Shown here: positions 1-5,543 of the stretch, one piece after another
How positions within the stretch are numbered: the stretch's first letter is position 1
How the letters are laid out: the number at the start of each line of letters is the position of its first letter
Source of the DNA: Gandjariella thermophila
Lineage (GTDB): Bacteria > Actinomycetota > Actinomycetes > Mycobacteriales > Pseudonocardiaceae
Reading direction: 5' to 3'
Assembly (NCBI RefSeq): GCF_005405885.1
Contig: NZ_BJFL01000017.1
Location: forward strand, 1 to 64,000
DNA length: 64,000 bases
The notes under the pieces: model-generated
What the model saw: the letters and a program-made list of their open reading frames with translations, nothing else
What the model was told of the DNA's origin: nothing
The model's database searches: none
Program-made: the position numbers and the translations under genes

Positions 1-1026
1 CAGCAGCTCGATCACCCGCTCGGCGCTGGCCGCGGCGGCGAACATCGAGTTGGACAGTTGCCCGAAGGCCCGCACCGGGCTGTAGAGCTGCTGCAGGAAG
101 ACCAGGAACACCAGCAGCCCGCCGAGGGTGATCGCGTCTCGGGCCAGCTCCCAGGTGCCCAGCCCGATCACCAGCAGCACGCCGGCCATCTCGAGCAGGT
201 CGACCAGCGGGACGAACAGGGCGCGCAGCCGGGTGGAGCGCATCTCCGCGGCGAAGCTGCCCAGGTTCTCCCGGTGGAAGCGTTGGGTCTCTGCGTCCTG
301 CTGGTTGTAGGCCTGCACCAGGGCGATGTTGCCCAGGCTCTCCTCGGCGACGGTGGTGATCGTCCCGTTGCGCCGCCTGGCCTCCCGGCTGGCGTCCTTG
401 ATCAACCGGGCGAAGTGCCTGGCCAGCAGCCAGAACGCGGGCACCGCGACCAGCGACACCACGGCCAACTCCCAGCGGATGTAGAACAGCGCCGCGGTGA
501 AGAACACGATCTTGAAGGCGTTGGCGAGGATGGCGGCCACCCCGCTGAGCACGAGGCTCTCGATCGCGGCGATGTCCCCGGTGAGCCGGGCCAGCACGTC
601 GCCGAGCCGGCGGCGCTCGAAGAACGCCACGGACAGCGTCTGCAGGTGGCCGAACACCCGGGTGCGCAGGTCCATCGCGAACCGCTCGCCCATCCAGTCG
701 GACAGGTAGTGGTCGGCGAACCCGACGAGTCCCATGAGGACGGTGACCCCGAGGAACACGCCCGCGATCACGAGCAGCAGGTGGAAGTTCCTCGGCGTGA
801 GGACGTCGTCGATGAGCACCTTGAACAGCCAGATCGCCACCGTCTCCAGGCCCGGCCCCAACACGAGCAGGACCAGGCTGCCCCACAACCAGGGGCGGAT
901 CGGGCGGGTGTCCGGCCAGAACCGCCGGAACGCCTGCCGCACAAGAACCTGTGGCGCCGCCTCCACCAGTCCCTCGGGTCGCGCGGCCGGTGACCCGGAC
1001 GACGCGCGAAGTCGTTTCCTCAACAT
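1..1026 (-). CDS. ABC exporter, transmembrane half (partial, runs off window start)
   Basis: An open frame with no stop runs off the left edge. It begins MLRKRLRASSGSP and has a cytoplasmic lead-in of about 45 residues. Hydrophobic helices follow (for example SLVLLVLGPGLETVAIWLF and LLLVIAGVFLGVTVLMGLVG), then long polar cytoplasmic loops such as DLRTRVFGHLQTLSVAFFERRRLGDVLARL, which carries the coupling-helix pattern of type I (B-family) ABC exporters. The visible 342 residues are the membrane domain; the nucleotide-binding domain should lie beyond the edge. Substrate cannot be told from this part. It lies 97 bases downstream of a Trp/Gly-rich peptide gene on the same strand, so export of that peptide, or regulation through it, is a reasonable inference. 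Confidence 0.9.
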   Translation of the reverse strand, partial: MLRKRLRASSGSPAARPEGLVEAAPQVLVRQAFRRFWPDTRPIRPWLWGSLVLLVLGPGLETVAIWLFKVLIDDVLTPRNFHLLLVIAGVFLGVTVLMGLVGFADHYLSDWMGERFAMDLRTRVFGHLQTLSVAFFERRRLGDVLARLTGDIAAIESLVLSGVAAILANAFKIVFFTAALFYIRWELAVVSLVAVPAFWLLARHFARLIKDASREARRRNGTITTVAEESLGNIALVQAYNQQDAETQRFHRENLGSFAAEMRSTRLRALFVPLVDLLEMAGVLLVIGLGTWELARDAITLGGLLVFLVFLQQLYSPVRAFGQLSNSMFAAAASAERVIELL

Positions 1027-1051: not shown

Positions 1052-1093
1052 GGACGGCGGTCCGGGCCCTGCCCGGGCCGCGGACCGCCGTCC
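1052..1093 (-). terminator. Strong hairpin between peptide gene and ABC exporter
   Basis: A perfect 12-bp inverted repeat (GGACGGCGGTCC / GGACCGCCGTCC) has further GC pairing in its 18-base interior. It lies 30 bases after the stop of the Trp/Gly-rich peptide gene and 26 bases before the exporter start. There is no T run on the minus strand, so it could be an attenuator, a partial terminator, or an RNA stabilising stem that makes the peptide transcript more abundant than the exporter transcript. Confidence 0.6.
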
Positions 1094-1122: not shown

Positions 1123-1284
1123 TCACCACCAGCCCCAGCCCCAGCCGCAGCGGTGGTGGCGGCGGCGACCCCACCAGCCGCCCCACCAACCGCCCCAGCC
1201 CCAGCCGGAGCCCCAGCCCCAGCCGCCGCCCCAGCCCCACTGCTGGTGGACGGCACGGCCCGGAGTGAACATCTTTCCAATCAT
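1123..1284 (-). CDS. 53-residue Trp/Gly-rich peptide (unrecognised; candidate secreted or leader peptide)
   Basis: This is a 53-residue frame starting MIGKMFTPGRAVHQQ. It continues with WG/GW repeats (residues 16-39), a basic patch RRRHHRC (40-46) and a GWGWGWW tail. I count 14 Trp among 53 residues and one Cys at position 46. The start is supported by GAGGGG eight bases upstream of ATG and by a near-consensus promoter further up. No biosynthetic enzyme is visible next to it, but the next gene downstream is an ABC exporter. It could be a ribosomally made, exported or membrane-active peptide, or a Trp-codon-rich leader that controls the exporter by attenuation. The coding part is a low-complexity GGC/TGG tract, so a non-coding repeat remains possible. 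I know of no family that matches it. Confidence 0.65.
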   Translation of the reverse strand: MIGKMFTPGRAVHQQWGWGGGWGWGSGWGWGGWWGGWWGRRRHHRCGWGWGWW

Positions 1285-1340
1285 GATTCGATCCCCTCAG
1301 TCCCTAAAGGTGCAATTACTGCCCTGTACGGACGCCAACC

Positions 1341-1368
1341 ACGTTACCCAGACCAAAAGGGCTGTCAA
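1341..1368 (-). promoter_or_regulatory. Sigma-70-type promoter for the Trp/Gly-rich peptide
   Basis: On the minus strand a perfect TTGACA (1363-1368) is followed after 16 bases by TAACGT (1341-1346). Transcription would start near 1334, giving a leader of about 50 bases before the peptide ATG. The surrounding 1285-1640 stretch is visibly less GC-rich than the genes and holds no other convincing gene. Confidence 0.65.
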
Positions 1369-1725: not shown

Positions 1726-4023
1726 TCAGGTGACGGTGGAGACGTACAGCGTCACCGGCTGGCCGCGCGGCACGTTGCCCTGCGGCGTCTGGCCGGCGAC
1801 CGTGCCCACCGCGCGGTCGGAGCGGACGCGTTGCACGTGGACCGGGTAGCCGGCCCGGGTCAGCGCGTCCTCGGCCTGCCCCACGGGCCTGCCCACGGTG
1901 TAGGGCACGATCGGGCCGTGGTTCGCCGCCTCCAGGTAGCTCGGGTCGGGGGCGGGAATCGGCAGGTCGGGCTGGCCCTTGAGGATCTCGTTGAAGGCCT
2001 CGAAGAAGGTCGGCGCGGCGATGATGCCACCGAACGCGCCGGCGCACCCCGCGCCGATCACCGGCGGGTTGGTGGCGCAGATGGTGCCGGGATGGTCGCC
2101 GTCGGCGTACACGGCGGACACCGCGGCGTAGCCGTCGGTGATGCCGAGGAACGCCACCGACTCGTTGTTCTCCGTGGTGCCGGTCTTGGCGGCGGTGGGT
2201 CGTTTCCACCCGGCGGCCGACGCGGCCGCCGCGGAGGTACCGGCGCCGGTGATGTCGTCACTGAGGCCGTGCATGAGCGCGTCGGCCAGCGCCGGGGCGA
2301 CCACCTGCTCGCAGGGTGACTCCGGCAGCGGCACCGGCCGGCCGTCACGGTCGGTCATGGACAGGATCGGGTTCGGCGGGCACCACCGGCCGTGGTCGGC
2401 CACGGTCGCCGCGACGTTGGCCAACTCCAGCGGGCTGAACGGGCTGAAGCCCAGGGTGAAGACGATGTTGTTCAGGTTGTAGACGCTCTGCGGCTCGGTG
2501 TACGCGGCGGTGTTGGTGGCGCCCTTCGGCGCGGGGCCGGGGTTCTGCCCGAACATGTTCGACCGCATGGTGTGCCGCAGCCCCAGCCGGGACGCCATCT
2601 CCAGCACGCTGGGCAGCCCGGCGCGCAGTTCGAGGTCGGTGAACGCGACGTTCGGCGAGGTGGCGAGCGCCTGCTGCAGGCTGATCGGGTTGGGGTAGGC
2701 CGGGCCGGCGTTGTGGATCACCGCGCAGGGGGCGCCGCGGGGCTGCGGGAAGCACTGCGCGAACGGGTTGGGCAGGGGTGTGTTCAGGCCGGCCTTGCCC
2801 TGCTCCAGCGCGGCCGCGGCGGTGAAGATCTTGAACACCGATCCGGCGCCGAACGGCACGCTGACGTCGGCGGCCTGGTTGAAGCTGGTCTGCCCGGCGT
2901 GCGCGTCGGTGCCGTAGTCCCGGTTGGACACCAGCGCCAGCACCCGGTGGCCGTCCGGCCCGGGTTTGACGATGACGAACGGGTTGGCGACGCCGGGTTG
3001 GTTGGTGGGCACCCGGTGGTTCGCCGCCTGCTTGGCGAGCGCGCTGATCCGCGAGTCCATCGTGGTGCGGATGGTGTAGCCGCCGGAGGCCAACTGCTCT
3101 CGGGTCATACCGGCCTGTTGCAGGTAGCTGACCACGTAGTCGCAGAAGAACCCGGACTCCGGCGCCGCCGCGTAGCAACTGTTCGGCGGCAGCGGCGGCC
3201 GGGGCGTGACGATGCCCAGTGGCTTCGCCTTCGCCTCGGCCGCCTGCCGGGCGGTGATGGCGTGCGTGTCCAGCATCGCGTCGATCACCAGGTTGCGGCG
3301 CTGCAACGCATGGTCCGGGAACCGGTACGGGTTCTCGTAGTTCGGGTTCTCCACCATCCCGGCGAGCAGCGCCGCCTGCTCGACGGTGAGCCGGTCCGCC
3401 GTGGTGTTGAAGTAGTAGCGCGCCGCGGCGCCCACCCCGAAGGTCTGGTTGCCGAAGGACACCACGTTGAGGTAGCCGGTGAGGATGTCCTCCTTGCTCC
3501 GGGTCTGCGCGACGTTCGCCGCGAGCTTGGCCTCCTTCAGCTTGCGCAGCAACGTGGGGTCCTGATCCCGCATCTGCGCCAGCCGGTCGTGCCGGTCCAC
3601 CACGTTGATCAGGTAGTTCTTCACGTACTGCTGGGTGATCGTCGAGCCACCCTGGCGGGCGCCACCGGTGGCGTTGTTCACCGCCGCGCGCAGCATCCCC
3701 CGGGCGTTCAGGGGCGGCTCGGAGAAGAACCCCCGGTCCTCGATGGCGACGATGGCCGCTTTCATCGTGGTGGAGATCTGGTTCCAGGTGGTGGGTATCC
3801 GGAACTGCTCGTACAGCGTGGCGACCGGGCGGCCGTCGGCGTCGGTCAGCGTGGTCATCAGCGGCGGCGGCACGTTGGCCAACTGGCTGGACAGGGTGGC
3901 CACCGAGGTGCTGATCCGGCCAGCAAGCACGCCCAGCCCACCGGCGACCGGGAACATCACGCCCGCGACTAGCACCCCGGCCAGCGCACACAACCCCATC
4001 AGCACACGAAGCTGCCGACGCAC
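1726..4023 (-). CDS. Class A penicillin-binding protein with C-terminal PASTA domain
   Basis: This bifunctional peptidoglycan synthase is anchored by an N-terminal helix (residues about 10-35). The glycosyltransferase-51 domain shows ED at 95-96 (EDRGFF) and GGSTITQQYVKN. The transpeptidase domain carries the serine motif SVFK in GAGSVFKIF, SPN in ATSPNVAF, and KTG in AAKTGTT. The final 65 residues (VPYTVGRPVGQAEDALTRAG onward) form one PASTA repeat, which binds muropeptides or beta-lactams. A length of 765 residues is typical of actinobacterial PonA proteins. The start is GTG with GGGGGG eight bases upstream. It is divergent from the P450 gene. Confidence 0.95.
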   Translation of the reverse strand: MRRQLRVLMGLCALAGVLVAGVMFPVAGGLGVLAGRISTSVATLSSQLANVPPPLMTTLTDADGRPVATLYEQFRIPTTWNQISTTMKAAIVAIEDRGFFSEPPLNARGMLRAAVNNATGGARQGGSTITQQYVKNYLINVVDRHDRLAQMRDQDPTLLRKLKEAKLAANVAQTRSKEDILTGYLNVVSFGNQTFGVGAAARYYFNTTADRLTVEQAALLAGMVENPNYENPYRFPDHALQRRNLVIDAMLDTHAITARQAAEAKAKPLGIVTPRPPLPPNSCYAAAPESGFFCDYVVSYLQQAGMTREQLASGGYTIRTTMDSRISALAKQAANHRVPTNQPGVANPFVIVKPGPDGHRVLALVSNRDYGTDAHAGQTSFNQAADVSVPFGAGSVFKIFTAAAALEQGKAGLNTPLPNPFAQCFPQPRGAPCAVIHNAGPAYPNPISLQQALATSPNVAFTDLELRAGLPSVLEMASRLGLRHTMRSNMFGQNPGPAPKGATNTAAYTEPQSVYNLNNIVFTLGFSPFSPLELANVAATVADHGRWCPPNPILSMTDRDGRPVPLPESPCEQVVAPALADALMHGLSDDITGAGTSAAAASAAGWKRPTAAKTGTTENNESVAFLGITDGYAAVSAVYADGDHPGTICATNPPVIGAGCAGAFGGIIAAPTFFEAFNEILKGQPDLPIPAPDPSYLEAANHGPIVPYTVGRPVGQAEDALTRAGYPVHVQRVRSDRAVGTVAGQTPQGNVPRGQPVTLYVSTVT

Positions 4024-4310
4024 AGCGCACGCCCCCCACGTCTTCGCGTCACCCGATCCGCCTGCGACACCGCATACGTTCGCGGAAAGTCGCGACCACC
4101 GCCGGTTGATCGCACCCGAACGGGTGGCGGCGATCAGACTGTTCCCCCGGACAGGTGGTGGCGGTGTTGATGATCACGCTCCGTCGTGGCGACGGCCGCC
4201 CTTTTGGCTCTGACGGTCGACGCCTTCCTGGCCGTACTGTCCGACCGGCAACCCGGCGCCCGCGACCGACACCGGCGGCTGGACGGGCACGAACCCGGAG
4301 GATCACGCTG
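4024..4310. promoter_or_regulatory. Divergent promoter region between the PBP and P450 genes
   Basis: These 287 bases separate divergent starts. The P450 side ends in CGGAGG nine bases before ATG. I do not see a confident -35/-10 pair on either strand. Short open frames across the region look like shadows. Confidence 0.4.

Positions 4311-5543
<1,233 letters not shown>

Follow-up and report, generated by a model that had tools for sequence, protein, structure and literature searches.

At the start of the 64,000-nucleotide stretch of Gandjariella thermophila DNA analysed here (the window), a short Trp-rich ORF lies before the gene for an ABC exporter on the same strand. This arrangement raises the questions of whether the ORF is a gene and, if so, whether its product is an exported peptide, a precursor modified at Trp, or a run of Trp codons that regulates the exporter.

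The peptide gene and its signals

The ORF extends from an ATG at position 1284 to a TGA at position 1123 of the minus strand and encodes a 53-residue peptide (MIGKMFTPGRAVHQQWGWGGGWGWGSGWGWGGWWGGWWGRRRHHRCGWGWGWW) with 14 Trp and one Cys, in which a leader-like N-terminal part (approximately residues 1-15) precedes a W/G-rich remainder that contains one Ser and neither Thr nor Tyr. Its Trp fraction of 0.264 is the highest of the 264 ORFs of 40-150 amino acids across the window, the second most Trp-rich (0.174) being a shadow ORF within a longer frame, and in 30 triplet shuffles of the window the Trp fraction never rose above 0.119. The initial annotation of this region had described the reading frame with its Trp and Cys content, the promoter, the ribosome binding site and the exporter as the following gene, all of which were found in the sequence (Table 1). 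It had also assigned the peptide to no known family, and searches of the peptide and its region against Pfam, NCBIfam and Rfam likewise returned no match. On the other side of the peptide gene, the window encodes a penicillin-binding protein with a PASTA domain (1726-4023, minus strand) and, from reading by eye, a cytochrome P450-like ORF (4155-5543, plus strand).

Table 1. Features at the peptide locus, in window coordinates.
Feature	Position	Strand	Basis
Precursor-like Trp/Gly-rich peptide, 53 residues	1123..1284	-	ORF, paralogues, homologues, pooled pN/pS
Promoter-like TTGACA-16-TAACGT	1341..1368	-	Sequence
Ribosome binding site GAGGGG, 8 nt before ATG	1293..1298	-	Sequence
Strong GC-rich hairpin, peptide stop to exporter start	1052..1093		Inverted repeat and fold
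ABC exporter, membrane domain only	1..1026 (start ~1026)	-	Pfam PF00664 (ABC_membrane), 7.5e-49

A family of Trp-rich peptides

Searching the G. thermophila genome at the DNA level and translating the hits identified three paralogues, located on contigs C1, C12 and C61. When the ORF DNA was searched against 390 genomes from the taxonomic family of G. thermophila and 40 fetched loci were read, 36 gave further peptides, each beginning with a segment that resembles M-x-I-(K/S)-x-x-F and continuing with W/G-rich sequence, and the other four gave none. The existence of three paralogues in the genome and 36 homologues in other Pseudonocardiaceae establishes that the window ORF is a gene and not a product of chance. 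Many weaker hits in this search proved to be simple (GW)n runs or to lie in other frames, and were rejected as family members. The 40 peptides, own copies included, have a mean Trp content of 23% and combine a conserved start with a variable W/G-rich repeat, the repeats differing strongly among relatives (e.g. GWHKWHDDD in Modestobacter). Pooled over close homologue pairs, which are not independent and whose Trp codons have no synonymous sites, pN/pS was 0.18. By this comparison, the ORFs constitute a gene family under purifying selection. Two protein-level searches returned little, probably owing to the small number of candidates scored: tblastn with the single window peptide recovered only itself among 60 relatives, and from the 390 genomes a profile built on the four paralogues retrieved no more than two loci, both from G. 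thermophila. The peptides also matched no family model, and no description was found in the open-access literature, a coverage outside which most subscription papers fall.

Within G. thermophila, GAGGGG or GGGGGG occupies the equivalent position before the own paralogues, and a promoter with identical 16-nt spacing precedes two of the three (C61 and C1), such that three of the four own copies carry a TTGACA-16-TAnnnT promoter. Outside this genome the promoter is absent from all 36 homologues, giving a total of 3 in 40 copies against 0.07 expected.

Linkage to an ABC exporter

The exporter is the next same-strand gene at 19 loci, those of the window and C61 included, with gaps between peptide and exporter as short as 36 nt. 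Stand-alone copies with no neighbouring exporter also exist, namely C1 and C12 of the same genome and many in Saccharopolyspora. Exporter homologues were scanned with the membrane domain as query, one genome per species, and the best 80 loci were kept. Among these, a short Trp-rich ORF lies upstream of the exporter in Saccharopolyspora, Pseudonocardia, Actinomycetospora, Blastococcus, Modestobacter, Geodermatophilus and Pseudonocardiales MAGs, i.e. in several genera of two soil actinobacterial families, the Pseudonocardiaceae and Geodermatophilaceae, at a distance of mostly 80-200 nt from the exporter match. At four MAG loci a Tyr-rich peptide takes its place; of a few upstream peptides no more than the C-terminal end is visible, the contig beginning within them, and two peptides were read by eye. 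For the remaining exporters among the best 80 loci, mostly from Streptomyces, the search revealed no such peptide.

The initial annotation had proposed a search for WG-repeat frames upstream of homologous exporters, and Trp-rich short ORFs are indeed present there in related genera. The observation it had named as contrary to a gene, an exporter that is kept beside a broken frame, was not encountered, as a Trp- or Tyr-rich ORF or its C-terminal end was present at every inspected locus of the close clade. As far as comparison of genomes shows, the peptide gene is thus linked to the exporter, and the suggestion of a new exported peptide gains support from a conserved family adjoining an exporter, which would presumably move the peptide. 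The hairpin downstream of the peptide gene folds with a z-score of -2.7 in the window region and is terminator-like, with no T run; single folds place a hairpin of different stem sequence at the equivalent position of nearly all exporter loci. It fits a terminator with read-through and would also fit an attenuator.

A VioD-like monooxygenase beside the Trp-type loci

By tblastn, a flavin monooxygenase gene adjoins every Trp-type exporter of the close clade and is absent from the four Tyr-type exporter loci. Its orientation is convergent in most Saccharopolyspora and elsewhere on the same strand, often with a 4-nt overlap; at two loci, peptide and monooxygenase genes follow one another directly with no exporter. 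In the exporter tree the Tyr-type loci are nested within the Trp-type clade, indicating that a single event removed or replaced both Trp and the enzyme. Molybdopterin-related genes and a hydrolase beside the Tyr-type exporters were considered as a substitute enzyme and set aside for want of an evident link.

The linked monooxygenases fall in one supported clade, which also includes a small number of unlinked members, among them a second copy from Saccharopolyspora. This second copy (L226, L229-L231, L235, L251-L253, L255) has neither peptide nor exporter nearby, which implies that the enzyme has other uses. At 20 more distant monooxygenase loci, of 40-53% identity, neither gene was present in the 7-9 kb read, a result that counts in favour of the function proposed below. 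VioD, which hydroxylates the indole ring at C5 (PMC9705886), is the best sequence match for the monooxygenase among solved structures and also the best fold match for the model of the G. thermophila enzyme (mean pLDDT 88), the top PDB entries 8gqr, 8h0m and 3c4a giving TM-scores of 0.79-0.80 by query length, consistent with a VioD fold. As far as the relatives compared show, Trp-rich members are linked to a VioD-like enzyme. This linkage and the kinship of the enzyme suggest that it may hydroxylate Trp of the peptide, and they lend comparative support to the earlier idea of a precursor modified at Trp. A PLP decarboxylase (PF00282) also recurs near peptide loci (L007:3-842, L046, L051, L061, L062, L064, L079, L120 and L121), including C1 of G. 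thermophila.

The exporter lineage and genome of G. thermophila

The window locus itself is a mixed case. The genome encodes a single such monooxygenase, whose neighbours on C1 are a stand-alone paralogue and a PLP decarboxylase, and none was found in the assembled sequence near the exporters of the window and C61; any action of this enzyme on the window peptide would therefore occur in trans. In the exporter tree, the window exporter falls outside the monooxygenase-linked clade and beside exporters linked to a protein kinase gene, which in many members of this lineage follows the exporter with a 4-nt overlap. Its nearest relatives are a second Saccharopolyspora exporter (59-65% identity). These and other exporters of the lineage (L280-L303) are preceded by candidate short ORFs, chosen by eye in translations of the upstream DNA, that have a similar start and a remainder rich in His/Arg, Phe/Arg/Cys, Arg/Ser or Asp/Arg. 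The start of the C61 peptide, MIKDVFRTGVPARQD, resembles those of the His/Arg type such as MLNALFTAHVPASRR beyond column shuffles, which suggests that leader and exporter form a common platform on which the cores may be interchangeable.

The window exporter is cut at base 1, where the contig ends, and the C61 copy, 85% identical, breaks at the same base, indicating that the assembly broke in, and lost, a near-identical repeat. Two exporter ends lie at other contig ends, the places concerned in all being window base 1 and contigs C61, C18 and C28; a kinase gene with an ATGA overlap follows one of these ends and a GMC oxidoreductase gene the other, and the assembly gap hides which of the own exporters precedes which.

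Proposed function and alternatives

The reading we favour, by a modest balance and on genomic evidence, is that the window ORF would be the precursor gene of a small, RiPP-like peptide that is exported by the ABC transporter and whose Trp residues are hydroxylated by a VioD-like enzyme. The short conserved N-terminal segment may serve as a recognition leader ahead of a fast-changing, low-complexity core, here Trp/Gly-rich. Transcription from its own promoter, with a hairpin after the stop that probably limits read-through, would let the precursor outnumber the exporter; the flavin monooxygenase would hydroxylate indole rings of the core Trp residues, and the MsbA-type transporter would then export the product. 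A genetically encoded short precursor with a conserved start and a variable core is what the 40 peptides represent, and a candidate modifying enzyme is encoded with the precursor in relatives and at the own C1 paralogue, though not at the window locus; neither a protease domain nor any other RiPP enzyme was found. Further points against this reading are the position of the window exporter beside kinase-linked exporters, with no monooxygenase near it or its C61 copy, the second Saccharopolyspora monooxygenase that has neither partner, and the higher score of the enzyme with a salicylyl-CoA 5-hydroxylase model than with that of VioD. We file the system as a RiPP-like variant, short of a proven RiPP. 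A broader proposal, which we advance tentatively and rate somewhat short of probable, is that actinobacteria possess a previously undescribed class of low-complexity peptides that are exported, built on one leader and exporter platform with Trp/Gly, Tyr, His/Arg, Phe/Arg/Cys or Asp/Arg cores, and that a dedicated VioD-family enzyme, a peptidyl-tryptophan hydroxylase, accompanies the Trp cores.

It is rather unlikely, in our estimate, that the peptide is exported without modification by the VioD-like enzyme, e.g. as a metal-binding, adhesive or membrane-active secreted peptide of low complexity, with the enzyme only genetically linked and serving another step such as one towards an indole or CoA-linked small molecule. 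The exporters of this genome with no adjoining enzyme would accord with such a role, as would the Tyr-, His/Arg- and Phe/Arg/Cys-rich peptides before related exporters that lack it and the PLP decarboxylase at several loci, a possible sign of chemistry on small molecules. However, peptide and enzyme co-occur across families, even at some loci with no exporter, and the enzyme is missing exactly where Tyr replaces Trp, a correlation that nevertheless amounts to a single evolutionary event, which limits its weight for the hydroxylation proposal. Processing of the window copy not by the monooxygenase but by a protein kinase whose gene follows the exporter in relatives, as at the His/Arg- and Phe/Arg/Cys-type loci, appears improbable: the exporter groups with the kinase-linked lineage, in which the overlapping kinase gene is frequent, and one of two own exporter remnants runs into such a gene, yet the peptide beyond its first 15 residues offers a single hydroxyl-bearing residue, the Ser, and kinase and GMC oxidoreductase alike are unassignable to the window copy across the assembly gap.

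That the ORF is a Trp-codon leader, acting as an attenuator or sensor for the exporter and encoding a functionless peptide, had also been raised in the initial annotation and is now disfavoured. Its 14 Trp codons, the strong hairpin separating it from the exporter and the linked genes of possible Trp metabolism are all features that such a leader might have. A leader of this kind should always lie upstream of the gene it regulates, whereas the family includes stand-alone copies; moreover, gaps to the exporter shrink to 36 nt, ORFs rich in Tyr, His/Arg, Phe/Arg/Cys or Asp/Arg occupy the equivalent place before related exporters, the N-terminus is conserved with a low pN/pS, and no Rfam leader matched. 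We regard this explanation as very improbable. If the favoured reading of an exported, Trp-hydroxylated peptide is true, these loci would provide a directly testable three-gene cassette in which a VioD-like enzyme oxidises Trp inside a ribosomal peptide, and would open a family of small secreted peptides unrecognised by present family models. Routine annotation may miss such peptides because of the shortness and low complexity of their ORFs.

Comparison with known systems

The window family shares with RiPPs a short gene, a conserved N-terminal and a variable C-terminal part, an adjoining exporter and, among relatives, a linked flavin enzyme; flavin monooxygenases occur in RiPP pathways such as that of methanobactin (MbnF; PMC10167746). 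It differs in that neither a leader peptidase nor another known RiPP enzyme was found next to the gene and in that the peptide matched no precursor family. The linked monooxygenase, for which VioD is the closest relative in sequence and fold, is only ~27% identical to it in the fold alignment, scores 192 and 201 bits against the curated NCBIfam VioD cut-off of 620, and sits with peptide and exporter genes rather than with violacein genes. It belongs to the same flavoprotein family as salicylyl-CoA 5-hydroxylase, whose model NF006101 gives 385 bits, above the VioD score but below its own cut-off of 1078, and is matched over only the first 361 of 768 positions.

Leaders of the trp attenuator type likewise place a short ORF that contains Trp codons ahead of a hairpin and a gene, but the window family is much richer in Trp, includes stand-alone copies, has relatives of non-Trp type and shows a conserved N-terminus. 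Lasso peptide precursors invite comparison through a separate actinobacterial family of W/G-rich short ORFs of similar length, which matches the lasso leader model NF033521, whereas the window peptide and three scanned homologues do not. A class-level search returned this separate group and not the window peptide family. Its members (L083-L111, e.g. L087:1409-1591 and L086:1996-2163) carry a lasso-type leader, as in MKATYEAPAIQARGSFRDVTRHGF followed by WGWG repeats.
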